A DNA stretch of 42,479 nucleotides, taken from the IMG/VR virus record IMGVR_UViG_3300006922_000052, positions 1 through 42,479 of that record. One strand, given 5' to 3'. The translations under genes and the position numbers were made by a program. This DNA is from a virus. Positions 2,638 through 41,979 of this stretch are shown here, piece by piece. The notes under the pieces are model-generated. The model was not told the origin of the DNA. It saw only the letters and a program-made list of their open reading frames with translations, and searched no databases. Numbering within the stretch: the stretch's first letter is position 1; each line of letters begins with the position of its first letter.

Positions 2638-2879
2638 TTAGCCTGTCTGATCGCCTGTTTCTCGGCGTTTGAATCGTCGAATGGTAGGACGTCAGCAAGG
2701 TTTCCAAGGGGCGTAGACTTCTCGGTTAGACTGATTACATCGTTGTCCTTGAGGAGTTGTCTAGCGCCGTTAAGGAGTGCCGCGTTGTACTCGCCTGTAT
2801 CTTGCATCTCAAGGATTGAGTCGCGATAGGTGTCGGCAAGTAGGACTTGTAGTTTCTCTAGTTGTTCTCGTTTCTTCAT
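2634..2879 (-). CDS. terS: terminase small subunit (T7 gp18-like)
   Basis: 81 residues, called from position and shape. It directly precedes terL with an ATGA overlap and has the length and helical, charged composition of T7 gp18, with a central NAALLNGARQLLKDN stretch. In this family the small subunit recognises phage DNA and regulates the large-subunit ATPase. No sequence motif alone would prove the assignment. The preceding gene ends 9 nt upstream. Confidence 0.85.
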   Translation of the reverse strand: MKKREQLEKLQVLLADTYRDSILEMQDTGEYNAALLNGARQLLKDNDVISLTEKSTPLGNLADVLPFDDSNAEKQAIRQAK

Positions 2880-2888
2880 AATAGTTGT

Positions 2889-3050
2889 TTATTCTTCCGC
2901 TTTTGCTTTTAGGTCTTCCACTTCTTGTTTCAACGCATCGAACTCAAGGAGTACCTTGGCGATTAAAAGCGTGAACTCAGGGTGGTTTTGAATGTCTTGC
3001 CACTCGCCACTAGCGTATTTCTTTAAATGCTCTATTGTTTGTTCGTTCAT
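2889..3050 (-). CDS. 53-residue protein of unknown function
   Basis: A short frame starting MNEQTIEHLKKYASGEWQ, with a Gln-Asn-His-Pro-Glu-Phe-Thr core and an acidic coiled-coil end (FDALKQEVEDLKAKAEE). Its ATG overlaps the stop of the hydrolase fibre gene (ATGA) and it ends 9 nt before terS starts, filling what would otherwise be a 167-bp gap. The charged heptad-like C terminus suggests oligomerisation. A small gene at this position is a plausible accessory to packaging or tail assembly, but its function is unknown. Confidence 0.7.
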   Translation of the reverse strand: MNEQTIEHLKKYASGEWQDIQNHPEFTLLIAKVLLEFDALKQEVEDLKAKAEE

Positions 3051-5437
3051 GTTGTTGGATGGATGTTTTTATATGGATGATTAGACGGTAAATTTCCTGT
3101 TAGTCCCCACTTGTGAGTGAGGTATCCTTCCACTTTTTCAATATCTGAAGTCCCCAAGGTGGTATTAAAAATCATAAGTTCTGCAAGGTCTCCAACCCAT
3201 GCCCTTTGGAAAAAGAATCTATCCATCGTAAAACTAGATGCTAGTAAATCTGTTGTGGATTGAATGGCTATAATCGCCATCGATTGCGTATGGTTTGTCG
3301 TGCTAGGAGTTACCCCTGTACCGTTATACCTCCATGTTTGATTGTGGGCAGGAGAAAAGGTATCTACCAGATTAGTACCGCTGGAGTGCCAATCATAACG
3401 ATTGTATTTTGTTTGTGTCCATTGGTAACCTAATATCGGATGATTACCTCCTGTGCCTGTCCGTTTTGACACGATAAATATAGTCCTTGCATCCTCAATA
3501 TTGTTCCAACTGTGCCATGTGAAGTTGGTGTAACGCATTACAGGTAAACTGTTTTGAGCGTTCAAGACAACCGTAGGACTATTCGCCGTGTAAGACGCAT
3601 TAGGTGTAATAGTGTCATATACGCTCGTACCCGTGTTCCATTGCTGAAGTGAGCCGTTTCTAGTTGCGTCATTACCAGCTGGGGAATCATCCGTCCAAGT
3701 AGCGTCTGTCGATGTAAGACCCGAAGCATCTAGTCTTAGAACCATATTGCTCAAAGTTGATGGGTCAAATAATGGGTTTGTTGAAACCGCATTTCCAAGG
3801 TCAGTAGGCAGAAATGTTTTAATGTGAGAAGCGACAACAACAGTATTACTATATGTAATCTGAGCATAGGCTTGTGCGTTGTGGTTGACATTTATTGTAG
3901 GCAACTCCGCTGAGTATGTACCATCATTGTTATTAACCACAGTTGCTTGAACCCAATCAATGGTGTTTCCCTGATGCGGGTAGGTATTATCGTGGAAATA
4001 ATAGACCTCAACACTCGATACATCCGCATCCGCATCGGGAGTAACAGTAACCATCGGGAAACCAGCGTTTGTTTGACCTGTTGGAACGAGACCTTCAACG
4101 AGGGTTGGAGGGTCGTACCAAGTGGTAGCTGTGCCTTTTAAATATTTATCTAACCACAATAGAACATTTTGATTGGTATTTGGGTGTTGTGAGTGTGGTA
4201 CATTCGGTTCAAGTGACCAACTAATGGGCGTTGTGGTTGGAAAATATTTCAGTCCCTCTAACACATAAGGCATTATCCCGTGGTTATCGTCTGTGCCGTT
4301 AAGGTAAAGATAGGGTGTATCTGCACTTCTAAAATGAGCGTTTGGCGAAATTGAACTTATATACCAATTATCAGCTTCGTCCCAATTCCCTTTCCTTACA
4401 TTAAATTCATTCCATCCAGCACCATAATAGGAAACAACTGCTTTAACTCTTGGTTCGGAAATAAGACAGGTGGAAAGTGTCCCGCCAACAGAATGACCAA
4501 TTACTCCGATATTGTTGTTATCGACTTCTGTTTTACTACGTAAGAAACTAAGGACTCTACGAGTCATTGCTTGCCAATAGTAATAATCTTTTGTGCGAAT
4601 TGAATCAATGGTGGCGGTATTGGATTCATTCATGCTTGCCATGTCTAAATCCCCACCCGAATTAAAACCATCACCACTCGGATAGACTGTGCGATTCAAG
4701 TCTGTACCTGTGGAAGTGTCTTCACCTCGATAATCTAAGGTCATCAAAGCGTAGTCATTACCCGCTAGTTCCGTATTTACAAAGGCAGTATCAGCATTGT
4801 TATGTCCGCCATACCACCCATGTATTCCAAGGACTGCTGGAACTGTTCCGCTAGAAGACCGAAGTGAATCTTTGATGGTGTAGGTAACCGCAACTTGTAT
4901 GTACTTAGTACCCACATTACAGTCTATTCTACCTATCCACTTATAGATTCCATTAGTTGTTTCGGATGATATTTCTGTTGCGTTAAACGCCCCTGTGTCT
5001 GGATTAAAATCATTAAATATACTACCTACCTTCCATAATGAGGGGCCGCTAGGAACTACTTCAATGTCACCATCATAGGTATAATATGAATTATCCTTTT
5101 TGTAGACCATCGAATGCTGAGAGTGGTTGTTAGGATAAAGTCCAAAACCTTTAGCATCCTTACAGTACGCAGTTGTGCCGTCCGTCTCGGTCGCTATTAA
5201 GTTCGCTACGTCGCGTGACTCAATACTTACTCCATTCGATCCATCCGCACCGTCTGCACCGTCCACTCCCGCTGGCCCTTGAAACTGTGCAAGCGAGTTC
5301 CACGCTGTGACACCGTCGCCTACCTTCAGGATTTGATTTGTCGTATCAAACGCTGGTTCACCTTCGCTTAATACGGGGTTGGTACTGGCAAAGTTAGCCG
5401 CTGTATCGCGCCTTAGAAAAATTCTTCTTACTGTCAT
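3047..5437 (-). CDS. tail fibre or spike with alpha/beta-hydrolase and LamG-like domains
   Basis: 796 residues. Residues 1-50 resemble the attachment module of phage fibres (RRDTAANF, then LKVGDGVTAWNSL). Residues 54-69 are a short collagen-like Gly-X-Y stretch. Residues about 170-440 read as an alpha/beta hydrolase: an HG oxyanion segment (His206-Gly207), nucleophile elbow GHSVGG with Ser316, Asp383/384 in GTDDNHG and His415 in PNVPHSQHP. The C-terminal 240 residues resemble a concanavalin-like LamG domain, ending in the common EGYLTHKWGLTGNLPSNHPY signature. Likely a virion enzyme that removes ester groups from surface polysaccharide while the lectin-like end binds glycan. The substrate is not known. 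It lies among the late tail genes. Confidence 0.85.
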   Translation of the reverse strand: MTVRRIFLRRDTAANFASTNPVLSEGEPAFDTTNQILKVGDGVTAWNSLAQFQGPAGVDGADGADGSNGVSIESRDVANLIATETDGTTAYCKDAKGFGLYPNNHSQHSMVYKKDNSYYTYDGDIEVVPSGPSLWKVGSIFNDFNPDTGAFNATEISSETTNGIYKWIGRIDCNVGTKYIQVAVTYTIKDSLRSSSGTVPAVLGIHGWYGGHNNADTAFVNTELAGNDYALMTLDYRGEDTSTGTDLNRTVYPSGDGFNSGGDLDMASMNESNTATIDSIRTKDYYYWQAMTRRVLSFLRSKTEVDNNNIGVIGHSVGGTLSTCLISEPRVKAVVSYYGAGWNEFNVRKGNWDEADNWYISSISPNAHFRSADTPYLYLNGTDDNHGIMPYVLEGLKYFPTTTPISWSLEPNVPHSQHPNTNQNVLLWLDKYLKGTATTWYDPPTLVEGLVPTGQTNAGFPMVTVTPDADADVSSVEVYYFHDNTYPHQGNTIDWVQATVVNNNDGTYSAELPTINVNHNAQAYAQITYSNTVVVASHIKTFLPTDLGNAVSTNPLFDPSTLSNMVLRLDASGLTSTDATWTDDSPAGNDATRNGSLQQWNTGTSVYDTITPNASYTANSPTVVLNAQNSLPVMRYTNFTWHSWNNIEDARTIFIVSKRTGTGGNHPILGYQWTQTKYNRYDWHSSGTNLVDTFSPAHNQTWRYNGTGVTPSTTNHTQSMAIIAIQSTTDLLASSFTMDRFFFQRAWVGDLAELMIFNTTLGTSDIEKVEGYLTHKWGLTGNLPSNHPYKNIHPTT

Positions 5438-30866: not shown

Positions 30867-32489
30867 TTAGAACGGATGATTCTCACCCATCGCTTGATCG
30901 TTATTAAACATAGTTGCATTAGTCTCATTTAATCTTCCTGTCTTTTGATCGAAGTGTAGTGTCCCTGCTAGTCCCGTCTCTCCACAGAAACGGTTCTTCA
31001 GTACGCGTAGCCTCGTTTGGTTAGAGTCGGCTTGATCGGATTGTTGGTTTCGTTCCAACCCAATCACCATGTCCGACAGTTGTGGTATGGCGTGTGATCC
31101 ACGGAGATGAGCGAGGCTTGTTACCTCTCCCTCTTCGTGTCCCTTGCCAGGTGGTCGTTTAAGATGACTGACTAAGACCATCCCGCATTGCGTCTCTTCG
31201 ACAAGCGATCTTAGACGGGTCATTGTATTGTCGATCAATCGACGTTCGTCGTCGCCGTCAAAGCCGCTGACTACAATCGATAGATGGTCTAGGAAGATCC
31301 ACTTACAGCCCAGTCCTTTGCATAGGTATCTGACACGGTTAAGTAGATTGTCGCTGTCACAACTTCCGAAGTGATCGTAGGTAAAGAAGCGTCCGTTCCC
31401 TACCGTCTCTTCGAACGATGGGCGTAGCGCCTCATGGTGGATGTCTTGTTCAAGATGTAACTGTCTACCTTCGTGCAGTCCCATGATGCCAAGAGCCGTG
31501 CGTCTGACGCTCTCTTCAAGCGCGATGTAACCGACTGTCTCTCCCTGTTGTAACAAGTGGTAAGCTACCTCACGACAGAACAGAGACTTCCCAATCCCAC
31601 TACCCGCGCAGATCGTAACGAGTTCTCCTCGGCGTATACCATGCGTCATGTTGTTCAAGTTGTCGTAAGGGTACGGTTGAGACTCGGCGTTGTTTACCTC
31701 GACTATCTTGTCCCATAGTTCTTCCGCTCCAACGATTCCATCAGGGCGATAGTCACGCGCTTGCCAAACGGCATCGACTAACTCCTTTGTACGGTTGGCA
31801 ACGACCATATCGTTTGGGTCTTTGAGTGGTAGCTCCGCTATCTTCGCCCGTCCTGGGGTCAGTAACGCCGCACATTCAGTCGCTCCCTTGCGTCCGCTGT
31901 CGTCCATATCAAACATGAAGACAACTTCTTCAAAGCGTTCTAACCAATCGAGCGCTTGAGCGACGTGGTTCTTCCCTGACTGAGCGCCGTGAGGAATAGA
32001 AACGACAGGCCATTTATGTTCGAACGCCTGTGATACAGACAGAGCATCGATCTCACCTTCGGTTACAACGACGCGTCTACCGCCGTCCCTCCATAGATGT
32101 TGACCATACAGTCCGACTAATTCGCCTCGTACTTTGAAGTCCTTGTTTGCAAATCTAATCTTCTGACCGACGAGTTTGCCGTCTCGACTTCGGTAGTTAG
32201 CTACCTGTGCTTGTTCTCCGTCTACCCAAGCTATCTGATAACCCCACTTCTTGCATGTAGCTTCCGTGAGATTACGTCTATTGATAGATGCGTATTCGCC
32301 TGTAACAAACGTAGGTGGTGGTTTGTTTATATCCATATTCGTTTTCGTTGTTGTTGTGGTTGTGTTGTCCGTTGGGAACGTGTGTTCACCGCACGAGAAG
32401 CAATGCGTTTGTCCGCTTATGTATTCGGATCGGGCATCGCTACTACCACAGGATGGACAACGCGTGTGGACTTGCGTGTATTCAGCCAT
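30867..32489 (-). CDS. primase-helicase (T7 gp4-like)
   Basis: 540 residues, near T7 gp4 (566). The N-terminal zinc site uses Cys11, Cys14, Cys30 and Cys33. The TOPRIM motif is VVTEGEIDAL (Glu145) with FMFDMDDSGRKG (Asp194, Asp196). The helicase Walker A is GSGIGKS (296-302), followed by IALEE and WIFLDHLSIV for motifs 1a and 2, and MVLVSHLKRPPGKG. It unwinds the fork and primes lagging-strand synthesis. A poly-Thr linker lies at about residues 43-50. The start lies inside the endonuclease I gene (73-bp overlap). Confidence 0.97.
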   Translation of the reverse strand: MAEYTQVHTRCPSCGSSDARSEYISGQTHCFSCGEHTFPTDNTTTTTTKTNMDINKPPPTFVTGEYASINRRNLTEATCKKWGYQIAWVDGEQAQVANYRSRDGKLVGQKIRFANKDFKVRGELVGLYGQHLWRDGGRRVVVTEGEIDALSVSQAFEHKWPVVSIPHGAQSGKNHVAQALDWLERFEEVVFMFDMDDSGRKGATECAALLTPGRAKIAELPLKDPNDMVVANRTKELVDAVWQARDYRPDGIVGAEELWDKIVEVNNAESQPYPYDNLNNMTHGIRRGELVTICAGSGIGKSLFCREVAYHLLQQGETVGYIALEESVRRTALGIMGLHEGRQLHLEQDIHHEALRPSFEETVGNGRFFTYDHFGSCDSDNLLNRVRYLCKGLGCKWIFLDHLSIVVSGFDGDDERRLIDNTMTRLRSLVEETQCGMVLVSHLKRPPGKGHEEGEVTSLAHLRGSHAIPQLSDMVIGLERNQQSDQADSNQTRLRVLKNRFCGETGLAGTLHFDQKTGRLNETNATMFNNDQAMGENHPF

Positions 32490-33507: not shown

Positions 33508-35925
33508 TTATGCGAAGAAATATTCCGAACCCAGCACCTCAAGTGGATCGAGCGATCCGTAAGGAGGTAGGTCAGGAAGTTCCTTCTCGGTTTGTGTTGA
33601 GATCTCATCCTTGAATTTAAGAAGTAGATCAGGTTGAAAGATTTCGGATGTCGCTTTACGCACAAGAACGCCGAGCTTGTCGCAGTTGGTAGCGTGTGTA
33701 GCGAAGCTGTCGTGTACCATCGCCAATGAATGGATGCCTTGTTCCTTCGCATACACCGCCGTTTGTTGGGCGACTGAAGCGTCAAGGCTATGGACAAAGT
33801 TCGGACTGACTCCGTTTGCCTGACGTCCTTTATCAACGGTGTCTTCTTCCGCTGTCCAACGGACGTAGCAAACGCGCTCCCCAAGGATGGTGTTAATGCG
33901 TTGGGTACGCGTGTTCATGTACCATTGCTTGACGCGGAAACCCATCGGTGTGTGCCATATAACAGGCTTCTGTTCATGTCCGAGTACACGGGCGGTCTCT
34001 TGCATCCACTTCATCACCGCATTAGGACGCTTCAAACACTCGTTCATCGCGCTCCAAACGAGACGACTAAGATAACCAATGGCGATAGGTGCTTCGTATC
34101 CAAACGGATCGAGGTTATCTTTCAAGCATTTCTCAGCGTACCAATCAGCGACGTACTCACGACAGGAGTAACGTGTACCACCGTATGGTTTGACCATGAC
34201 TGGACGCTTGGTTGTCTTACGATCTACTCCAAACTTCAGCCATGCTGATGCCACATGATCGCCTTTCTTGGCGTCTTCAAGTAGCAGTTCATTCACTCGG
34301 TCACTTACAAACTTGTAGAGATCGGCGGGAACGTCGGTAGCAGTGACGTTGGTTGCGGCTCCGCCGATCTCATCACGTCCCAACAGGCTTAGTAATTGAA
34401 TACCATTGTTGGACGCGTCCATTGCGCATGGGAGGCGTGTTTTAAAACCACGACCGCCACAAGCAAGCATGTCACCCCACTCAAAGCAGAAAGCTAGAAA
34501 CTGCCAGGGTTTATCTGCCGCTTGCCACCAGTCGTTGGTCTTAGGATCGGAGTATACTTCATGTATCTCCTTCTTTCTCTTATGTACCCACTCAACTCGC
34601 TCATCAAAAGTGATCTTGTCGTTACCGAAACAGTTCGCCCCGTGTATCGCCAACCAACGGGCGTCTATCTCTGGCTTGAACATCGTTTCCGACTCGCTGA
34701 ATAACAGCATGGACTTCGCTAGGTCTGTACCTTGAGGACTCAGGAAGTAAGGAACGGGATACATCCGTCCACGAAAGTCGATTTGATGGGGATAATAGAA
34801 GTGTTTACCTGCGTACTTCTCTGCCATCCACAACGTCTTGATGATGTGTAAGCGTTGGCTACGCATGGAAAGATTAAGGCGATGAACAGCGGACGCTTTC
34901 CTACCGTACTCCTTACGTGAGTCCTTATCTGTCTCGTACTTCTCCAACCACACGGGTAGCTCGTAGTCTTCACGCCTGCACATCTCCCCGATCTCACGGT
35001 TCGTGTCCCACGCCCATCGAGCGACGTCCATAACGCGGTCATTTACCGTCCACTTGGTCGATTGTACGTGGTTAACGGCGTCTACTACCGTGGGCATGTC
35101 CTTGAACTTGAGGGATCGTAAGTGATCCATGTCGTAGGACTTCACAAATGTTAACGGTGGAAGCCCGTCTGATACGCTGTAACCACCTTTCCAAACAGAC
35201 GTCCAGTTGTTCGGGCTTTCCACCGTTGGTAACCACAAAGGTCTAAGCACTTCGTTATGCTCGTTGTACTCCTGTATCCATTGGAACAGCTCATCCGTTG
35301 CTGACACGTGGTACACGGTACGAGTCGGGTTCTCACCGATCACTTTAAACATGATTAAATGTGTTGTGGTACGGATCAGCTCCAACATCCACGTACCCAT
35401 CGAGACTTTCTCTTTGCGTGTCCATGCTCTCCACGCTTTCATGTTTCCCTTCTTCGTCTCACCACGTGTGTGCCTTTTGTACGCCTCTGTCTTCGCTCGA
35501 TACGAACGGTTAGCGTGTTTCTCAATATCGATAGCGGCGTAGTGAAAAATCTCAGGGCTTTCGTCCCGTAACTCACGCAGTCTTACCTCGTCTTCGATGT
35601 ACGAACAGATGCGAATAGCAGACGATACAAGCGGACGCTTCTCACAGATGCCATCAATCACCGACTTCATCGAGAGCATGGCGATTGTCTCTGGCTCAAC
35701 GTCCCATATCAAAGGCATCCAAAACGGGATGGCATGTGGGTTCTTGCGGTGGTATTCGAAACGCTTTTCAAGCTCCGTTATAAGGATAGGTAGCTTGCTC
35801 CGTAGGATGCGTTGTCCATACGGTGCTTCCGATTCTAAACCGCGTTCACGGGCGGACTGTACCTTACGTCGGTAGCGGGCAATGCCCTGATCTACCATCT
35901 CTAGGTTAAGCTCTAGCTGATCCAT
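33508..35925 (-). CDS. single-subunit RNA polymerase (T7 gp1-like)
   Basis: 805 residues (T7: 883). Catalytic residues map to T7 as follows: Asp503 in CAMDASNNGIQ (T7 Asp537), Arg569, Lys573 and Tyr581 in RKTTKRPVMVKPYGG (T7 Arg627, Lys631, Tyr639), and Asp739 in MVHDSFATHA (T7 Asp812). It ends in YFFA, comparable to the T7 FAFA foot. It transcribes middle and late phage genes from phage promoters. The gene follows attP, the order seen in integrase-bearing marine podoviruses. The shorter length lies mainly in the N-terminal half. Confidence 0.98.
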   Translation of the reverse strand: MDQLELNLEMVDQGIARYRRKVQSARERGLESEAPYGQRILRSKLPILITELEKRFEYHRKNPHAIPFWMPLIWDVEPETIAMLSMKSVIDGICEKRPLVSSAIRICSYIEDEVRLRELRDESPEIFHYAAIDIEKHANRSYRAKTEAYKRHTRGETKKGNMKAWRAWTRKEKVSMGTWMLELIRTTTHLIMFKVIGENPTRTVYHVSATDELFQWIQEYNEHNEVLRPLWLPTVESPNNWTSVWKGGYSVSDGLPPLTFVKSYDMDHLRSLKFKDMPTVVDAVNHVQSTKWTVNDRVMDVARWAWDTNREIGEMCRREDYELPVWLEKYETDKDSRKEYGRKASAVHRLNLSMRSQRLHIIKTLWMAEKYAGKHFYYPHQIDFRGRMYPVPYFLSPQGTDLAKSMLLFSESETMFKPEIDARWLAIHGANCFGNDKITFDERVEWVHKRKKEIHEVYSDPKTNDWWQAADKPWQFLAFCFEWGDMLACGGRGFKTRLPCAMDASNNGIQLLSLLGRDEIGGAATNVTATDVPADLYKFVSDRVNELLLEDAKKGDHVASAWLKFGVDRKTTKRPVMVKPYGGTRYSCREYVADWYAEKCLKDNLDPFGYEAPIAIGYLSRLVWSAMNECLKRPNAVMKWMQETARVLGHEQKPVIWHTPMGFRVKQWYMNTRTQRINTILGERVCYVRWTAEEDTVDKGRQANGVSPNFVHSLDASVAQQTAVYAKEQGIHSLAMVHDSFATHATNCDKLGVLVRKATSEIFQPDLLLKFKDEISTQTEKELPDLPPYGSLDPLEVLGSEYFFA

Positions 35926-35950: not shown

Positions 35951-36190
35951 GGTCACGACTTGGTCACGTCGCTACGCCCTCTAACGAGAGGTTCAACGGA
36001 CATTATGTCAATTAAATAGTTGTTATATTTGAAGAAGTTAGTCGTGACTCGCGTGATTAGTCTTGATAAAGGCTCATTCCTAAATCTAGCGTGTCTACCA
36101 ATTTCACCACGCCCGCAGTCAGCAAACACCCGTAACAACAAGGGTTTAGGTCGAGGGGAATTATCAGGGTTGGTCACGTAAGTCACGACT
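35951..36190. promoter_or_regulatory. GTCACG-type repeats flanking attP, candidate integrase arm or Xis sites
   Basis: GGTCACG occurs at 35951-35957 and 35962-35968 (11-bp spacing) on one side of the tRNA fragment. On the other side GGTCACG at 36172-36178 is followed by GTCACG in AGTCACGACT at 36181-36190. An inverted copy, AGTCGTGAC, lies at 36040-36048. Clusters of short direct repeats on both sides of a core are typical of arm-type sites of tyrosine integrases. Which protein binds is not shown. The remaining sequence between integrase and RNA polymerase holds no credible gene. Confidence 0.55.
36078..36116 (-). other. attP: attP core: 5' half of tRNA-Leu(UAG)
   Basis: Read on the minus strand from 36116, the sequence begins GCGGGCGTGGTGAAATTGGT and continues AGACACGCTAGATTTAGGA. 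This is the acceptor 5' strand, D-arm and anticodon arm of a bacterial tRNA-Leu with anticodon UAG. Identity stops in the anticodon loop; the 3' half (variable arm, T-arm, acceptor 3' strand) is absent, so it is not a tRNA gene. It lies between integrase and RNA polymerase, as in P-SSP7 and integrating pelagiphages. Integration into a host tRNA-Leu gene is inferred. Confidence 0.85.
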
Positions 36191-36197
36191 TTTATCT

Positions 36198-37229
36198 CTA
36201 TTTGGTCATGCTGTGGTCAGTCGTTTCCAATACATCCCTTGCGGTTTCAAGGTTCTTTGGAGCGATCTTCGCATAACGTATTGTGGTACTGATTGATTTG
36301 TGTCCAAGGAACTCCTGGATCACACGTAAATCGATACCTCGTTGGACGAGTCTGGACGCACACGTATGACGAAGACAATGCGGAACAAACTCCTTGTCAT
36401 GTCCTAGTCCAAGCATGTGTTTCATCGTCTTCCAACTGTGGTTGAAGCTGTCCTGTGTAAACGAGAACAAAGGTAGCTGACTGTCAGGCTTATGATGTCG
36501 GTTAAGAGCGTCCATAGCACGACTAGTAAGCGGTACAGATCGGGACTTACCATTCTTGGTATCCCACAGGTAGATGACACGAGCTTCTGCATCAACGTCA
36601 CGTCCACATAACTTGAACAACTCACCTGTTCGTAAGCCTGTGTCCACCAACACCTTACAGAAGTCAGCGACCTCATCGCGTCCAATCTCTTCGAACTTGG
36701 CAAGCATCGCTTGTTCTTCAGCCTCGTTTATCCAACGCATACGTCCTTCGGGTTCACGCTTGCGTTCAATCACAGGTATACGGGCGATGTAACCGCGACG
36801 ATAAGCGTGTCTCAACATCTTTGATAAGGCGGCAAGACGGCGATTAATCGTGCCGTTGCTCTTCCCGTCCCGCTCAAGCTGATACACAAGGTCGTCGATC
36901 ACTCGCTCATCCACCTCACGTACTGGACGACTAGCTCCGAGCCGTAGGTACACGTCCTTGGCGTTTCTCCAAGCGGCTAACTCGCTCTTACTTCCCCGCC
37001 AATGTCGGTTAAGCACCTCTTCCGCTAGTTCCCGAAGGTTCATCACCACCGCTCGTGTATTTTCCACCACGTCCTGTGATATATCGATACCGAGCCGTAC
37101 CTTTTCCTTCATCGCTCGTAGCCATTCGTCGGCTTCGTTGTAGGTCTTGAAGTGGGGACGTAATCTCACCCCGTTTGGTGTTCTCATATCGGCTTGAAAG
37201 CCCCGTCCCATTTGTCTTATTGCACCCAT
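36198..37229 (-). CDS. int: tyrosine-family site-specific integrase
   Basis: 343 residues from the ATG at 37229, chosen because AAGGAG lies 7 nt upstream; an in-frame ATG at 37262 lacks such a site. Catalytic residues are Arg200 (TGLRTGELF), Lys225 (TKNGKSR), His284 and Arg287 (PHCLRHTCASRL), His310 (FLGHKSISTT) and Tyr319 (RYAKI). The N-terminal part has an arm-binding-like region and a core-binding SAM-like domain. It should recombine attP with a host tRNA-Leu gene. An overlapping upstream gene (37009..37605) covers its first 221 bases. Confidence 0.96.
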   Translation of the reverse strand: MGAIRQMGRGFQADMRTPNGVRLRPHFKTYNEADEWLRAMKEKVRLGIDISQDVVENTRAVVMNLRELAEEVLNRHWRGSKSELAAWRNAKDVYLRLGASRPVREVDERVIDDLVYQLERDGKSNGTINRRLAALSKMLRHAYRRGYIARIPVIERKREPEGRMRWINEAEEQAMLAKFEEIGRDEVADFCKVLVDTGLRTGELFKLCGRDVDAEARVIYLWDTKNGKSRSVPLTSRAMDALNRHHKPDSQLPLFSFTQDSFNHSWKTMKHMLGLGHDKEFVPHCLRHTCASRLVQRGIDLRVIQEFLGHKSISTTIRYAKIAPKNLETARDVLETTDHSMTK

Positions 37230-37605
37230 CTCTATCTCCTTTCGTTTTGGTGCGGGCGTCATCGGATTCTACGTGTGTAGACTCAAAGCAATCAACTAGT
37301 AACTGCGATGCCCGTATTCTTTTTTTGCGTCGATCTGTTGTGTCCTCGGCCTCGTCAATGATACCCATGTCTATGCCATCACGGATCGCACGGCGTGTTG
37401 TCTCCTCGCTGAACGGTGAACCTTTAACCACGCTCTTCACCGCGATTGAATCGTGTCCCTTGTAGTGGTGAAGAAGTAATCCGTTGGCGATCAAACGATG
37501 ACACGTCGAGATCTTCACGAACGTCCGTGCTTGGTTGGTAGTGTCGTCAGTAAACGAACGCATGTAAGCGTCGAGGTACGGCACGATTTGATCGCGTTTA
37601 AGCAT
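37009..37605 (-). CDS. winged-helix-like putative regulator overlapping the integrase start
   Basis: 198-residue frame. Residues about 30-110 (HRLIANGLLLHHYKGHDSIA, then GSPFSEETTRRAIRDGIDMG, IIDEAED and RRKKRIRASQLLVDCFES) read like a winged helix-turn-helix with a basic wing. The last about 70 residues, inside the integrase gene, are low in complexity and may not be functional. A run of seven A (minus strand, near 37319-37325) would allow slippage; both other frames stop about 10 codons later. Position before integrase and after a palindrome suggests control of lysogeny or of int. The family assignment is by eye. Confidence 0.6.
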   Translation of the reverse strand: MLKRDQIVPYLDAYMRSFTDDTTNQARTFVKISTCHRLIANGLLLHHYKGHDSIAVKSVVKGSPFSEETTRRAIRDGIDMGIIDEAEDTTDRRKKRIRASQLLVDCFESTHVESDDARTKTKGDRDGCNKTNGTGLSSRYENTKRGEITSPLQDLQRSRRMATSDEGKGTARYRYITGRGGKYTSGGDEPSGTSGRGA

Positions 37606-37656
37606 GTCTATGAATCTCCGAGGCGGGAATAAATCGAATCGTTATTGTGGAATCAA

Positions 37657-37671
37657 ACGTAAATTTTACGT
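37657..37671. promoter_or_regulatory. palindrome ACGTAAA-T-TTTACGT, candidate operator
   Basis: A perfect 7+7-bp inverted repeat with one central base, immediately after the stop of the 37672..37911 gene and about 50 bp before the start of the winged-helix-like gene. It is too short and T-poor to be a terminator. A dimeric regulator, perhaps the product of the next gene, could bind it. No second perfect copy was noticed. Confidence 0.5.
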
Positions 37672-37911
37672 CTATTGTTTCCTGTACGGACTCCTCGCCC
37701 AGTACTCCTTCTTGACGGGTCGCTCACGCTTCTTTTGTGTACGTATAACGTCGGTTATTTTACCTTCCTCATCGTACACAAAGCGGTCGATCTCACACTT
37801 ATTCCAAAAGCGGTCAAAGGCTTCCACAACTTCTTCACGTGTTGGAAGTATCGATGTAAAGTGTTCCCACTCGCCTTGCTTGTAGTCAGGGTCAAAGTCT
37901 ATGTCGCTCAT
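37672..37911 (-). CDS. small early protein, unknown function
   Basis: 79 residues, charged, with an acidic N terminus (MSDIDFDPDYKQGEWEHF) and a basic C terminus (TQKKRERPVKKEYWARSP). The centre (REEVVEAFDRFWNKCEIDRF) is helical. It shares one base with the end of the kinase gene upstream. No known domain was recognised. As an early gene it may act on a host process. Confidence 0.65.
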   Translation of the reverse strand: MSDIDFDPDYKQGEWEHFTSILPTREEVVEAFDRFWNKCEIDRFVYDEEGKITDVIRTQKKRERPVKKEYWARSPYRKQ

Positions 37912-38414
37912 TATACCAACACCTTTCTATCGACGTCGGTTACGCCCGCTTCAGAGATGTGATTGTCGTTAGCAGGTGTAAAGTTCTTGCGATCTATCTC
38001 CCACACTTCCCCGCCAAGCTCACGTACCATCTTAGCCTCGTTTTCAAAGCGTAGATCGTCGATGACTATCGGATGATACTCCGTAAACATAGTGTCGGTT
38101 AGTGTGTGCTTCATCGCTCGTACCCAGATGTCTTGGTCGCCTGTATACTTAGATATTTCAACACGCCCCCACTCGGTTCCAAGCGTCTGTAAAAGGACAC
38201 GTCCTGTGACGCCTAGGTGGGTCATGTCGTTCTTCTTGTCCCCGAACACGTACTCGTGCCCCACTAGGACTTTAAGCATGTGTTTGATAGGCGTAGCGAA
38301 CGACAGCACAACGCCGTTTTCACCCGCTAAGAACTTTGCATAGGTTGATTTGCCCACGCCCTTGTACCCGCATAAAGCGATTAAACGTGGTTTGGATTTA
38401 GGTTGGTTACTCAT
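37911..38414 (-). CDS. deoxynucleoside monophosphate kinase-like protein
   Basis: 167 residues. The P-loop GYKGVGKST (16-24) is followed by a kinase-like core: FATPIKHMLKVLVG, GRVLLQTLGTEWGRV, then HPIVIDDLRFENEAKMV and ELGGEVWEIDRKN. This matches phage dNMP kinases (T4 gp1-like, P-loop NMP kinase fold), which raise deoxynucleotide pools for replication. Early expression fits. The exact base specificity is not deducible. Confidence 0.85.
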   Translation of the reverse strand: MSNQPKSKPRLIALCGYKGVGKSTYAKFLAGENGVVLSFATPIKHMLKVLVGHEYVFGDKKNDMTHLGVTGRVLLQTLGTEWGRVEISKYTGDQDIWVRAMKHTLTDTMFTEYHPIVIDDLRFENEAKMVRELGGEVWEIDRKNFTPANDNHISEAGVTDVDRKVLV

Positions 38415-38443
38415 AGTGTTCTTGTTCGATTACGAATGGTTTA

Positions 38444-38638
38444 TTAATGCGTTCCGTCGTAGTACGGCGATTGCATGTACGAGGGCAAGTTATGCTCCTC
38501 ATTGCGTTCTTGATGGCGTTCAAAAGCGTACCCGTCGTCGTCGCCATCCATTTCTTCTTCTTCGTTGTTGTCATAGTCTGTTTTTTCTACATGTCGGTTA
38601 ATGTATTTGAAGTCCTTAGTGGTTATTTCTGTTCGCAT
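38444..38638 (-). CDS. small highly charged early protein
   Basis: 64 residues with an acidic centre (DYDNNEEEEMDGDDDGYAF) and many His, Asn and Tyr residues. No domain is recognised. The start uses an AACAACATG context with no Shine-Dalgarno, like the HNH gene upstream, and it overlaps that gene by 16 bp. Acidic early phage proteins can mimic DNA and block host nucleases or polymerases, but that is only a possibility here. Confidence 0.6.
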   Translation of the reverse strand: MRTEITTKDFKYINRHVEKTDYDNNEEEEMDGDDDGYAFERHQERNEEHNLPSYMQSPYYDGTH

Positions 38639-39126
38639 GTTGTTGGTTGGTTGTTGATTAATAAAGAAAGTCGTTCCGATTCCGTTTTAAAACGATGACA
38701 GATCGCACACAAAACTTGGCATTTACTCAACTCCTCAAAGATCACTTTCCAGCTTTTCTTAGGTAAGTCACCTATTGAATAAGTCTTATCTTCCCTGTCC
38801 TTGTGGTCTAAATCCAAACCTAAAGGGTCGTCGTTATACCCGCATACACAGCATCCTTGAGAGCGTTTAAAAAGCGTTAGAAATGTTTTCTTCTTTTCTT
38901 TCTCTGACTTAGTGGTTTTAACACGTCGCTTTTCCAACGCTTCTTGAACCTGCATAAAGCGTGTCCTGTTGGTGTTATCACTCGCTACTACAGGCATTGT
39001 ATAACCTTCGGTTTCAAAGCGTAGAAAACTTTCTGCTTCTTCATCGGTCATATCTGTCGTTCGTAGCTCTTTTCTCGCTTTATCAATACGCTTCTGTACT
39101 TCCTTGATCTCGTTGAAATGATTCAT
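38623..39126 (-). CDS. HNH endonuclease with zinc-type cysteines
   Basis: 167 residues. A helical N-terminal region (to about residue 85) precedes an HNH domain with Cys92-x-x-Cys95 (GCCVCGYN), Asp107-His108 in LDLDHKDRED, and Cys140-x-x-Cys143-His144 (VLCAICHRFK). The cysteine pairs bind a structural zinc and the His-Asn/His set would bind the catalytic metal. Such genes in phages may be free-standing homing nucleases or packaging/degradation enzymes. The position in the early operon favours host DNA damage or homing. Confidence 0.85.
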   Translation of the reverse strand: MNHFNEIKEVQKRIDKARKELRTTDMTDEEAESFLRFETEGYTMPVVASDNTNRTRFMQVQEALEKRRVKTTKSEKEKKKTFLTLFKRSQGCCVCGYNDDPLGLDLDHKDREDKTYSIGDLPKKSWKVIFEELSKCQVLCAICHRFKTESERLSLLINNQPTTCEQK

Positions 39127-39304
39127 GTTGTTGGTTGTGTTGTTCTATTAGGTTGAATTGATCCTTGGGTGCGGTCGCTATCCACTCCCAATAATACTTC
39201 CAAGATCCGTCAGCGAACACGTATATAAGCTCGCCTTTCTTGGTGCGTTCTATCTTTGGTTGGACGTTTGAACGTCGGTTAGTGAATAGTCCTGTCTTAA
39301 TCAT
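39083..39304 (-). CDS. small early protein, unknown function
   Basis: 73 residues. RTKKGELIYVFADGSWKYYW gives a beta-strand rich middle, and the C terminus is Gln/His-rich (EQHNQQHESFQRDQGS). It overlaps the HNH gene by 44 bp and the gene before it by 8 bp. No family was recognised. Confidence 0.6.
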   Translation of the reverse strand: MIKTGLFTNRRSNVQPKIERTKKGELIYVFADGSWKYYWEWIATAPKDQFNLIEQHNQQHESFQRDQGSTEAY

Positions 39305-39554
39305 CGTTGTTTTCTAGGTAGTGGTTGATTTCTTCACGATCCATAACGTCCACGTAAAGAGGTGTTCCCTCTCCCATGTACGCACAGAACGTGTTGAATG
39401 CTAGATATTCCATCGCTTCTTCTTCGGTCATATCGTCGTCGGTTAACACGCCAACCATTTTACGAGCGTTGTACACGACACGATGGACGCCGTTGGAATA
39501 GTTAAGACCGATTATAGCGTCGTCAAAGCCGTCGGCAAAAAGCGTCGCAGTCAT
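39297..39554 (-). CDS. conserved small phage protein, unknown function
   Basis: 85 residues from the ATG at 39554; a longer frame upstream overlaps the 24-residue membrane gene and is not supported. The block DGFDDAIIGLNYSNGVHRVV followed by TEEEAMEYLAFNTFCAYMGE and GTPLYV is the pattern of a small protein very common in phages of many types, with no known role. Its ATG overlaps the upstream stop (ATGA). Confidence 0.75.
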   Translation of the reverse strand: MTATLFADGFDDAIIGLNYSNGVHRVVYNARKMVGVLTDDDMTEEEAMEYLAFNTFCAYMGEGTPLYVDVMDREEINHYLENNDD

Positions 39555-39625
39555 AGTATGTCGTACATCCAAGCGAGGATGAGAATACCTGCGATCAGCA
39601 ACGCTCCAAAAGTTATAAGGCTCAT
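39551..39625 (-). CDS. 24-residue membrane peptide
   Basis: A very short frame reading MSLITFGALLIAGILILAWM then YDIL: almost the whole peptide is one transmembrane helix. Its ATG overlaps the stop of the preceding gene (TGATG) and its own stop overlaps the next ATG (ATGA), so it sits in a perfect chain of coupled starts. This spacing on both sides is the main support. It may modify a membrane target early in infection; unknown. Confidence 0.6.
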   Translation of the reverse strand: MSLITFGALLIAGILILAWMYDIL

Positions 39626-39792
39626 CACTTGGTTTCGTCGTTAAGCACAGCAACACGCACGTCATACTCGCGTTGAAGGTCGGTTAAGCGTTCCATAGCG
39701 GTGATGTTGTCGGCGATGCGAACACGTATGCGGTTGTAGTGGTAGATAAGAGCTTTGATCTCTTCCGTTGTGAGGTCGTGTGTAGGTGTCAT
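39625..39792 (-). CDS. 55-residue helical protein, unknown function
   Basis: Starts MTPTHDLTTEEIKALIYHYN and continues with RIRVRIADNITAMERLTDLQ. It is an amphipathic helical hairpin in character. The ATG overlaps the stop of the preceding gene (ATGA) and the stop overlaps the next ATG (TGATG). Together with the 24-residue peptide it fills a stretch that would otherwise look empty. Function unknown. Confidence 0.65.
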   Translation of the reverse strand: MTPTHDLTTEEIKALIYHYNRIRVRIADNITAMERLTDLQREYDVRVAVLNDETK

Positions 39793-40124
39793 ACGTCGTA
39801 GTCGGTTGATTTGGTTATGGTTGCGATGTTCGCTGAATAGGTATGTTCGCTTGCGATTAAATATTTGTACTTACGCTTGGCGTCTTCCTCGTTATCAAAG
39901 ACCTCGTAAAAATCATTGACGCCATTCTTGGTACACCAAGCTACGAGGTACTGAAGTTTGTTATTATCGTCGGTTAACATGTCTTCTTCATCGCGTACCT
40001 TCTCAAGTAAATCCAATAAGGACACGTAAGCGGAGTAGTAAGGATCAGTCTTGTCGATGATACCTTCCATCTCGTTGTACACGATGTAGTCGAGCGTTTT
40101 TAATATGTGTTCTGAAGTTTTCAT
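39789..40124 (-). CDS. early protein, unknown function
   Basis: 111 residues from the ATG at 40124, chosen because it lies just after the upstream stop; an in-frame ATG at 40139 overlaps that gene. Charged and helical (MEGIIDKTDPYYSAYVSLLD, then LEKVRDEEDMLTDDNNK) with a second half rich in aromatic residues and an FEVFDNEEDAKRKYKYL-like strand-helix unit. No domain recognised. Confidence 0.65.
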   Translation of the reverse strand: MKTSEHILKTLDYIVYNEMEGIIDKTDPYYSAYVSLLDLLEKVRDEEDMLTDDNNKLQYLVAWCTKNGVNDFYEVFDNEEDAKRKYKYLIASEHTYSANIATITKSTDYDV

Positions 40125-40126
40125 AA

Positions 40127-40360
40127 TCAGTCGTCCCATCGCATGGTTTCGCGATTGATCGTCAACACTTCAGCGTGTTCATAATCGCCCTGTTTGCCGT
40201 AGTTACACATAACATGGATGACTTCGTCGTCGTAATCGTAGACTTCTAAGTCACAATAGAAACCTTCGACTTTGTATCCTTGCGTGTTTTCTATGGCGTT
40301 TGTTTCGGCGTCTAACAGCGAACTGATAGACTGCGTTTCTTGGTCGGTTAAATCTGTCAT
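40127..40360 (-). CDS. first gene of the early minus-strand operon, unknown function
   Basis: 77 residues if the ATG at 40360 is used; another in-frame ATG lies at 40372 and neither has a strong ribosome site. The product is acidic with LLDAETNAIENTQGYKVEGF and a beta-rich middle (YCDLEVYDYDDEVIHVMCNY). It lies nearest the divergent regulatory region, so it is probably transcribed first after entry. Unknown function. Confidence 0.6.
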   Translation of the reverse strand: MTDLTDQETQSISSLLDAETNAIENTQGYKVEGFYCDLEVYDYDDEVIHVMCNYGKQGDYEHAEVLTINRETMRWDD

Positions 40361-40675
40361 GGATCCGACCATGTGAAATTCGGTTAAGTCGTCAACACCA
40401 AAGTCGGTTACTACTACGTAGTACTTTTTTCATACGACCACGTACACGTAATCAGTCTCGCGTTTTTGGGGGCGTTTTTGGTGCGGTTTTGGGGCGAGAA
40501 AAAGGGCGTGGAAAATGGGCGTATTTTGGGCGAGGAAAACGCGACAAAAATCGAATGAATGGCAGTGTTAACGCGGTAGACAGCGAAATGAGAAAAAACA
40601 AAAAAGTTTGACAAGATTGGAAAAATTCATTTCCTCGGATCCATTCTTATTATTAATCACAAATCAAATACATAT
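40361..40675. promoter_or_regulatory. divergent regulatory region between early operon and plus-strand cassette
   Basis: About 300 bp without a credible gene. From left to right it has two GTCGGTTA-type octamers (to 40410), a perfect 12-bp palindrome TACTACGTAGTA (40412-40423) followed by a T-run, the phased A/T-tract array (40459-40550), and a TTGACA hexamer (40608-40613) pointing toward the plus-strand cassette. No convincing matching -10 box was found at the usual distance, so promoters are expected here but cannot be placed exactly. Confidence 0.55.
40459..40550. promoter_or_regulatory. phased A/T-tracts alternating with GCG, likely curved or protein-organised DNA
   Basis: GCG triplets start at 40460, 40472, 40483, 40494, 40506, 40519, 40530 and 40541, spaced 11-13 bp. 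Between them run A or T tracts of 4-5 bp (40463-67, 40475-79, 40487-90, 40499-503, 40512-15, 40524-27, 40536-39, 40546-50). About one tract per helical turn gives intrinsic curvature or a regular array of binding sites. Placement in the divergent spacer suggests control of early transcription, or an origin or packaging structure. Confidence 0.7.
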
Positions 40676-40909
40676 ATGAAAAACGAAAAATATAACGGAT
40701 GGAACAACTACGAAACATGGAGAGTGAATCTCGAATGCTTTGACGCATGGGAAGGAAACTTAGAAGCCGATGAAGCACGCGAGATGATCGAAACGCTAAT
40801 AGAAGAAGATACTAAGGAAGGTTTAGCACGCGACTATGCAATGGCTTTCATTTCCAATGTCGATTGGATGGAGATTGCAGAGCATTACAACGAGGAAGAA
40901 GAAGTTTAA
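40676..40909 (+). CDS. plus-strand cassette gene 1 (NGWNNYETW family protein)
   Basis: 77 residues: KYNGWNNYETWRVNLECFDA near the start is the hallmark of a small protein widespread in phages and some plasmids, with no known role. The C terminus is very acidic (EIAEHYNEEEEV). No ribosome site is visible before the ATG, unlike the strongest minus-strand genes. It begins the only plus-strand operon in the window and is followed by its neighbour after 2 nt. Confidence 0.8.
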   Translation: MKNEKYNGWNNYETWRVNLECFDAWEGNLEADEAREMIETLIEEDTKEGLARDYAMAFISNVDWMEIAEHYNEEEEV

Positions 40910-40911
40910 TC

Positions 40912-41325
40912 ATGAAAGAAACAAATAAGATAAAGGACTTCATCTATGGCTACAAACTCACTGCCTTATGGAGTACAAACGATAACGATAAAACCGAGTG
41001 CGAATTTCTAGATGAAAGATTCTCAGTAGATGATTTTGACAACGATGCTAGAAAAGCGATTGAAAGCGATTGTTTAAAGTTCATTACATCTAACAAAGAT
41101 GATCTAGAAACCTATTCAAACTCCATATCTTACAATATTCATGAATCGCTTTCCGCATGGGAAGTTGCAGGTCATGATTTTTGGCTTACTAGAAATGGTC
41201 ATGGTGCAGGTTTTTGGGATCGTCTTGGACTAGCTGAAACGATTGGAAAGCGATTAAGCGATTCAAGCGAATCCTTTGGTGAATGCGATATTTATGTAAA
41301 CAATCAACAAACTTTATCAGTATAA
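40912..41325 (+). CDS. plus-strand cassette gene 2 (GHDFWLTRNGHGAGFWDR family)
   Basis: 137 residues from the ATG at 40912, two bases after the preceding stop; an earlier in-frame start overlaps that gene. The block WEVAGHDFWLTRNGHGAGFW is a strongly conserved signature of a phage protein of unknown function, preceded by a helical N-terminal half and followed by an ESFGECDIYV strand. The run of His, Arg and Asp could be an active site, but no activity is established. Confidence 0.8.
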   Translation: MKETNKIKDFIYGYKLTALWSTNDNDKTECEFLDERFSVDDFDNDARKAIESDCLKFITSNKDDLETYSNSISYNIHESLSAWEVAGHDFWLTRNGHGAGFWDRLGLAETIGKRLSDSSESFGECDIYVNNQQTLSV

Positions 41326-41326
41326 T

Positions 41327-41458
41327 ATGAAAAACGAACAAAATAACGAAGATATATTCCATGAGCCTAAATGGCTTACCTTATTTACATCCGCGATGCC
41401 TGTGCTGTTGCTTGGCTTTTGGATCGCGATATTAAGCTCTATCCTGTTTGGATTATGA
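41327..41458 (+). CDS. 43-residue membrane peptide
   Basis: Starts MKNEQNNEDIFHEPKWLTLF and continues as a hydrophobic helix (about residues 17-42, MPVLLLGFWIAILSSILF). The start lies one base after the preceding stop and its stop overlaps the next ATG (ATGA). Its first codons resemble those of cassette gene 1 (ATGAAAAACGAA in both). Probably an inner-membrane peptide; function unknown. Confidence 0.65.
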   Translation: MKNEQNNEDIFHEPKWLTLFTSAMPVLLLGFWIAILSSILFGL

Positions 41459-41673
41459 AAATAAACAAAGACACGCTTTTAACTTGGGGCATATTTGCTT
41501 CTTTTACTGACGATAAAAACGCCCAAGAAAATGGCTATCATGGAAACGCTGATCAATACGAATTAGTTCTTCCAAGCGAAATCCAAGAAAAGATTTATGA
41601 TTTGATCAATGAACATCTTGAAAAGGCAGAAACAATCGAATTACCTAATGACCTTCCCTACATCTTTGAATAA
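41455..41673 (+). CDS. plus-strand cassette gene 4, unknown function
   Basis: 72 residues from the ATG at 41455, overlapping the stop of the membrane peptide (ATGA). It is small and soluble in character: KINKDTLLTWGIFASFTDDK, then YELVLPSEIQEKIYDLINEH with an acidic end. No domain recognised. One base separates its stop from the next start. Confidence 0.65.
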   Translation: MKINKDTLLTWGIFASFTDDKNAQENGYHGNADQYELVLPSEIQEKIYDLINEHLEKAETIELPNDLPYIFE

Positions 41674-41674
41674 A

Positions 41675-41923
41675 ATGAAAATAAAAAATACTTACGAATA
41701 TCAATTTCCCTCATATGCTCTTTGTGCCCTTTTCAATGGCGATATGGATGGATTAGATAATGACGATATTGAATTGTTTGAATCGTTCATGGAAAGAAAC
41801 AAGCAAATCGATATATGGGACGACAAAGAACCCGATCAAGAACCTTATTTCTGTAAATACCCAGAGTTTGGATTGGCGTGTGATGTTGTCGATTTAATCG
41901 GGATTGAATTTGAGAAAGAATAG
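41675..41923 (+). CDS. plus-strand cassette gene 5, small acidic protein
   Basis: 82 residues from the ATG at 41675. It contains YALCALFNGDMDGLDNDDIE followed by EPYFCKYPEFGLACDVVDLI, a pattern seen in a small phage protein family of unknown function. Three cysteines and many Asp/Glu residues could bind metal, but this is not shown. It is the last gene before a strong terminator 21 bp downstream. Confidence 0.7.
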   Translation: MKIKNTYEYQFPSYALCALFNGDMDGLDNDDIELFESFMERNKQIDIWDDKEPDQEPYFCKYPEFGLACDVVDLIGIEFEKE

Positions 41924-41944
41924 TTAACATCTAACCAAGCTTTA

Positions 41945-41979
41945 AAGCCCGTCTTAACGCGATTGAGACGGGCTTTTTT
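41945..41979 (+). terminator. rho-independent terminator of the plus-strand cassette
   Basis: Arms AAGCCCGTCT (41945-41954) and AGACGGGCTT (41966-41975) form a perfect 10-bp stem with an 11-nt loop, followed by a T-run ending at 41979. It sits 21 bp after the last cassette gene. In the minus direction only a short T-run follows, so it is mainly a plus-strand terminator. Confidence 0.93.

Follow-up and report, generated by a model that had tools for sequence, protein, structure and literature searches.

The early operon of a T7-like phage known from one IMG/VR virus record (IMGVR_UViG_3300006922_000052, whose whole stretch of 42,479 bp we call the window) carries an octamer, GTCGGTTA, whose copies accumulate on a single strand between the operon leader and the integrase gene. 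This enrichment is seen in the window and in its relatives and does not depend on protein coding. Since all genes of that region are read on the - strand, the word in gene sense is TAACCGAC; 'sense' denotes here the strand of the early mRNA. A first-pass annotation made from the sequence alone had pointed out the repeat. The observation is confirmed as real and conserved, and it extends to a second oriented word, TACGTG, which that annotation had missed; its interpretation is partly supported, and the mechanism considered below is what we infer from these patterns.

Octamer enrichment in the early operon

In a count over the whole 42.5-kb window, GTCGGTTA occurs 12 times on the + strand, from 36497-36504 to 40403-40410, the number and span (36497-40410) being exactly as first annotated. 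The rest of the + strand holds zero copies, so that no region of similar density exists elsewhere on it, and the - strand holds one (31528-31535). Dinucleotide shuffling of both strands of the whole window led to an expectation of 1.76 copies, and no shuffle reached 13. For the 4.3-kb early region, Markov simulation gave 0.15 (order 2) or 0.59 (order 3) copies with a maximum of 3-4, and permutation of synonymous codons in the early open reading frames (ORFs) gave 0.65 with a maximum of 4 in 2000 shuffles, compared to 11 observed. Chance expectation in the early region is hence well below one (0.15-0.65 under three nulls), as had been proposed. Three further copies with one mismatch occur in the same region and orientation (38402, 39801 and 40379). 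Sites and variants, in gene sense and in operon order, are:

40403-40410, - strand: site A1, TAACCGAC, leader, ahead of the first early ORF
40379-40386, - strand: one-mismatch variant TAACCGAA, leader, at 17 bp from A1
40343-40350, - strand: site A2, first early ORF (40127-40372), L-T-D
39969-39976, - strand: site A3, ORF 39789-40139, L-T-D
39801-39808, - strand: one-mismatch variant CAACCGAC
39679-39686, - strand: site A4, ORF 39625-39792, L-T-D
39438-39445, - strand: site A5, ORF 39297-39665 (phrog_13182), L-T-D
39274-39281, - strand: site A6, ORF 39083-39304, T-N-R-R
38593-38600, - strand: site A7, ORF 38444-38638, I-N-R-H
38402-38409, - strand: one-mismatch variant TAACCAAC
38094-38101, - strand: site A8, kinase gene (37911-38414), L-T-D
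37935-37942, - strand: site A9, kinase gene, V-T-D, 159 bp past A8
37750-37757, - strand: site A10, ORF 37672-37911, I-T-D
37004-37011, - strand: site A11, integrase gene, L-N-R-H, conserved in 19 of the 21 integrases of the clade
36497-36504, - strand: site A12, integrase gene, L-N-R-H

The A8/A9 pair recurs with equal spacing in the related loci L025, L026, L027 and L030. The copies had been said to stop at the integrase; the last one does lie there, its exact place being inside the integrase gene (36198-37262).

In-frame copies read L/V/I-T-D or x-N-R-H/R and others fall outside genes, in agreement with the frames first reported, while the third reading frame is closed to the octamer because the word contains the stop TAA. 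Many sites do read L/V-T-D, as would be expected if the early proteins simply favoured certain codons or peptides (L-T-D, N-R-H), but this origin, like a mere chance repeat, has a negligible likelihood, being contradicted by the synonymous shuffles (11 copies in ORFs against 0.65, which upholds the earlier dismissal of protein constraint), by the use of several frames, by non-coding copies, by the lack of antisense sites and by retention of the word through amino-acid change. The last point comes from the 21 clade integrases, in which two sites sit in a conserved stretch. The Arg codons within the motif are CGA in 19/21 and 18/21, the usual Arg codon of the clade being CGT, and in a Leu to Arg change (CTT/CGT) the T that opens the motif is retained. 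The window has lost the second of these sites (AAT CGC there) and has its own at 36497. Number and orientation of the octamer seem to be kept more than position, with sites turning over, and codon use points to a word that is under selection for its own sake.

Conservation and limits of the pattern in relatives

Using ORF 39297-39665 as query, 80 loci were retrieved, among which the clade members (L025-L033 and L036-L038) carry TAACCGAC on the early-gene strand with almost none on the opposite strand; in several of these loci no other octamer is as frequent. Further members came from a head-to-tail octamer scan (L105, L108, L110, L114, L116, L117, L121 and L125) and additional ones from an RNA polymerase alignment search. 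The octamer scan also matched L107, L109, L112, L120 and others, each with an isolated pair only and no other enrichment, and an exact-match scan with the window leader matched one, unrelated contig. Pooled distinct clade sites number 67 sense and 0 antisense in ~47 kb of early sequence, where the 122 kb of late sequence would predict about 0.4; when sites are pooled in a slightly different way, the counts are 74 sense and 1 antisense. Most of the single-base variants tolerated are a C at position 1 or an A or T at position 8, and positions 5 and 7 are nearly invariant. The motif is consequently not missing from relatives, which carry it in the same region. A palindromic MarR-dimer operator was rejected as the nature of the octamer, as there are no inverted pairs and antisense copies are absent in the pooled early regions, and so was the seed of a phage antisense small RNA (sRNA), which needs antisense copies, the sole one lying far off at 31528. 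Type III restriction orientation (EcoP15I/T7 type) was also discarded, since it accounts for loss of one orientation but not for gain of the other.

No octamer precedes the early leader over 3.2 kb in L165, 7.8 kb in L108, 4.9 kb in L117 and 9.8 kb in L105. The nearly whole relative G001 (39.8 kb) has 9 sites in 3.2 kb, and two others, elsewhere, on the opposite strand. The pattern begins at the early-operon leader and fades by the integrase and RNA polymerase genes, and it therefore tracks the transcription unit rather than the genome end. A replication or entry signal, one of three readings first offered, is unsupported, the operon leader rather than the genome end being where the sites begin. 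Primase or origin sites were rejected too, as mirrored copies would be needed throughout the genome and were not seen.

The same limits bear on a Chi-like host recombination-nuclease site shielding the first-entering genome end from RecBCD/AddAB-type digestion. Such a role would suit the octamer length and the single orientation, and the strand with the G-rich GTCGGTTA is the one that a nuclease coming in from the early side would be expected to require. Phages without RecBCD inhibitors are known to be enriched in Chi, chiefly close to origins and packaging sites (Bobay et al. 2013, PMC3784561). Phage Chi is, like the present word, an oriented enriched octamer; here, however, the bounds are those of the early transcription unit and not an end or origin, no sites lie between genome end and leader, and a second word with the same limits is left unexplained, all of which makes this reading very unlikely. 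A search of genomes with the RNA polymerase found a contig with a relative (75% RNA polymerase identity) in one metagenome-assembled genome (MAG), Opitutia NP78, besides a distant match in Cohaesibacteraceae. Outside the phage contig this MAG has 23 octamer copies in 1.6 Mb versus 65 of the reversed control word, again at odds with Chi, although the test is weak because the host status of the MAG is unconfirmed.

A second oriented word, TACGTG

TACGTG surfaced when sense, antisense and late counts were compared systematically. The clade has 96 sense and 9 antisense copies, with 9.9 expected from late regions, and the sister loci L015, L020 and L143, where octamers are few or lacking, have 55 sense and 4 antisense with 3.2 expected. 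In the window the early region holds 11 sense and 1 antisense copies (6 and 11, respectively, in the rest), and 22 of the 25 copies in G003, the genome holding L015, are on the sense strand, mostly in the early part. The word is mostly confined to the same early unit as the octamer (window 36323-40450; L015, L020, L143, L116, L121), and we found no fixed spacing or pairing of the two words beyond the shared ancestry of individual sites. The sense copies of TACGTG in the window are:

40445-40450, - strand: leader
40439-40444, - strand: leader, head-to-tail with the copy at 40445-40450
40023-40028, - strand: early region
39723-39728, - strand: early region
39351-39356, - strand: early region
39218-39223, - strand: early region
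38247-38252, - strand: early region
38021-38026, - strand: early region
36917-36922, - strand: integrase gene
36361-36366, - strand: integrase gene
36323-36328, - strand: integrase gene

Several words of other phages were tried as analogues and set aside. AAACGACACC (L015) and TCACTGGGAG (BB8) are located just upstream of start codons; such start-codon-adjacent words are AAACGACACC at L015:552, 781, 1108, 1706, 1950, 2343 and 6356 and CACTGGGAG at five sites in L155 (BB8), 2475-4783, and both are apparently translation-initiation leaders. CACCCATC of Pasto and CCTGCCG of CRP-227 cluster mainly near the left genome end. Among the literature matches listed, the octamer was an apparent chance occurrence within oligonucleotide sequences.

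Architecture of the leaders

Most clade leaders bring close-set octamers (or a one-base variant) together with TACGTG copies. Nine leaders of the L121 type share a strongly conserved block of TAACCGACTAACCGAC followed by two TACGTG, with an octamer spacing of 8 bp. Those of L027-L030 and L165 have two TACGTG, then TAACCGAT and TAACCGAC 10-11 bp apart, then a box, TTGGCACG-N4-NTGC; in L026, which shares this octamer pair and the box, a single TACGTG follows the box. This box lies ~40-60 bp before the first ATG, just downstream of the octamer pair, in 6/6 loci of the L026-L030/L165 subclade (L165:3295, L026:1624, L027:301, L028:1442, L029:1907 and L030:83) and in no other locus scanned. It agrees with the sigma54 -24/-12 consensus, and a sigma54-dependent early promoter in a T7-like phage is possible. 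The window leader consists of two abutting TACGTG, a TACTACGTAGTA palindrome, TAACCGAC and TAACCGAA; no sigma54-like box was seen in it or in the L121-type leaders. In leaders of the box-bearing subclade, upstream of the oriented sites, 1-3 palindromes per leader of the form TGTATA-N5-TATACA, or degenerate versions of it, were found (L165:3193-3233, L026:1540-1610, L030:5-21).

Sites for a transcription activator or host regulator, such as enhancers for the sigma54-like promoter with the in-gene copies acting at a distance, would account for the box that immediately follows the leader pair in six loci, given that sigma54 promoters require enhancer-bound activators. Enhancer sites, however, function in either orientation and are normally palindromic, whereas orientation is strict here; the copies extend 4 kb downstream, and the window and L121-type leaders are devoid of the box. 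We regard such sites as improbable.

Another of the readings first offered was a signal at the RNA level. Spelled out, UAACCGAC (and UACGUG) would be recognised by an RNA-binding protein of phage or host, or cleaved by a ribonuclease specific for the sequence, so that host RNA polymerase antiterminates or the early mRNAs are shut off together. Sites occur only on the strand of the mRNA, whether the sequence is coding or not, and are limited to the early unit, and the varying spacing of the leader pairs (8, 10 and 11 bp) demands no single helical face. Repeated or leader-located RNA words do occur in early transcripts, as in the RegB-sensitive sites of T4 and nut of lambda, but the words here are different and form no hairpin. 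In predicted RNA, octamer accessibility was not significantly higher than in shuffled context (0.556 versus 0.523, p 0.09), TACGTG sites were less accessible (p 0.004), and antisense sites are absent, so that there is no complementary sRNA copy. Moreover, the leader sites of one subclade are upstream of the sigma54-like box, and the pair would therefore lie outside the transcript there. Action at the RNA level, though possible, thus appears rather unlikely.

Genomic setting and a candidate reader

Genes from 964 to 40,372, tail proteins among them, are nearly all on the - strand. The early operon consists of small genes, including those for a deoxynucleoside monophosphate kinase (37911-38414) and an HNH endonuclease, and is followed by:

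37009-37605, - strand: winged-helix (MarR-fold) regulator adjoining the integrase, a putative reader of the sites
36198-37262, - strand: tyrosine integrase (phrog_1, E 2.8e-58)
33508-35925, - strand: T7-like single-subunit RNA polymerase (phrog_414, E 6.5e-226), downstream of the site-bearing region

With RNA polymerase, integrase and a MarR-type regulator beside the integrase all present, the gene order is that of a temperate-looking T7-like phage. LUZ100, Pasto and pelagiphages likewise have a MarR-fold gene directly upstream of the tyrosine integrase and phage RNA polymerase, and the same MarR-integrase order was found in LUZ100, HTVC119P, CRP-227 and RHEph01. For LUZ100, transcriptomics led to the proposal that MarR controls lysogeny via sites near the RNA polymerase promoter, although no stable lysogens were obtained (PMC10134795).

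AlphaFold2 models the 37009-37605 protein as a winged helix (pLDDT 73), whose best Foldseek matches in the PDB are to the MarR family (weak E ~2e-3, TM ~0.44); its homologues have 30-54% identity, some with subthreshold HTH_27/MarR_2 matches. We infer that this protein is the first candidate reader of the octamer.

A 5' half of tRNA-Leu adjoins the window integrase (36085-36122) and is an attachment-site candidate; tRNA-Leu 5' fragments also lie beside the integrase of relatives. L009 (47, 1139) and L156 (1471, 2563) have two tRNA-Leu pieces ~1.1 kb apart in the integrase-RNA polymerase interval, an arrangement suggestive of a small intervening element or of a second attachment site. The tRNA attachment pieces had no match among genomes of the class or order of Opitutia NP78. 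An A-rich plus-strand operon (40676-41923) encoding DUF7249- and DUF6926-like proteins diverges from the early leader and has a terminator-like hairpin at its end, near 41940-41977; no oriented sites occur within it. The contig ends (1-140 and 42370-42479) share similar TTACCGCC-rich repeats and an identical CGCAGTTACCGCACCCACAATCGTCGCAATC stretch, and the contig probably represents an almost complete genome whose join falls inside or close to the end repeats.

Comparison with stoperators

A binding site for a repressor or silencer spread over the early region appears to be the best fit of the three readings first offered. By analogy with phage L5, the octamer may be an asymmetric DNA site through which a regulator silences the host-transcribed early operon, a stoperator-like role that we favour tentatively and with less than even confidence. 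The regulator would bind both oriented words on DNA, the leader copies serving as an operator at the promoter and those inside the operon as repeated, orientation-dependent blocks to host RNA polymerase. Expression of the early genes, the integrase and the RNA polymerase would thereby stay off in a prophage, and a related phage that came in would be shut down. The stoperator-like reading is suggested because orientation is tied to transcription, copies are found in the leader and unit-wide, the gene set is that of a temperate phage, and the sites are restricted to host-transcribed genes.

L5 stoperators are asymmetric, number 20-30 per genome and are aligned with transcription, and their reversal abolishes repression (PMC9283540, PMC6550527). 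Cluster A mycobacteriophages (L5 gp71), temperate like the phage considered here, share with the present system a short, asymmetric, many-copy word that has one orientation relative to transcription and varies between subclades. Theirs occupies both promoters and transcribed sequence; in our case, leader and gene-body copies are what is seen, the leader being the presumed promoter region. The present phages differ in belonging to a T7-like podovirus clade rather than to siphoviruses, in having sites in the early operon only and in the presence of a second oriented word. The candidate reader is a single winged helix of MarR fold, in contrast to the helix-turn-helix (HTH) plus Stoperator domain of L5-type repressors. 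Pfam and PHROG scans of the early ORFs detected no L5 gp71/TipsytheTRex-type repressor with these two domains, the gp71 sequence itself not having been used as query; because no homologue of the L5 repressor was identified among the early genes, the system is not a member of the L5 family.

Several observations weigh against stoperator-like silencing or against this protein as its reader. The octamer has 8 bp versus 13 bp in L5, and lies mostly inside genes, whereas L5 stoperators are mainly in short intergenic gaps. Neither word is enriched on one strand in the early regions of other integrase-bearing T7-like phages, namely LUZ100, Pasto, HTVC119P, CRP-227, RHEph01, Lo5R7ANS and BB8. The MarR-fold gene was not found in L037, L038 and L133, yet these keep sites (5, 5 and 2), and the L020 and L143 homologues have a near-identical recognition helix with 0 and 2 octamers. 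The TGTATA-N5-TATACA palindromes resemble dimer sites and are plausible dimer operators, perhaps of MarR; because those in the leaders of one subclade suit a MarR dimer better, another protein may read the octamer. Finally, if a promoter lay upstream of the leader pairs, these would instead be placed in RNA.

L037, L038 and L133 have an intact-looking integrase and fewer, more degenerate octamers, as if immunity had been lost, a situation that may be compared to that of D29 and L5.

A broader possibility, appreciable but doubtful, is that TAACCGAC and TACGTG form a two-word, strictly oriented silencing or marking code running through genes of the host-transcribed unit, with a reader unrelated to known stoperator repressors; elongation-blocking immunity sites would then have been invented twice, independently, or would have a counterpart in RNA. 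Altogether, conserved oriented sites over the whole host-transcribed unit offer a concrete target for binding and reporter assays and bear on how temperate T7-like phages keep their early genes silent. Were an elongation block true, stoperators would exist beyond cluster A mycobacteriophages; were the action at the RNA level, the two words would be a new early-transcript code.

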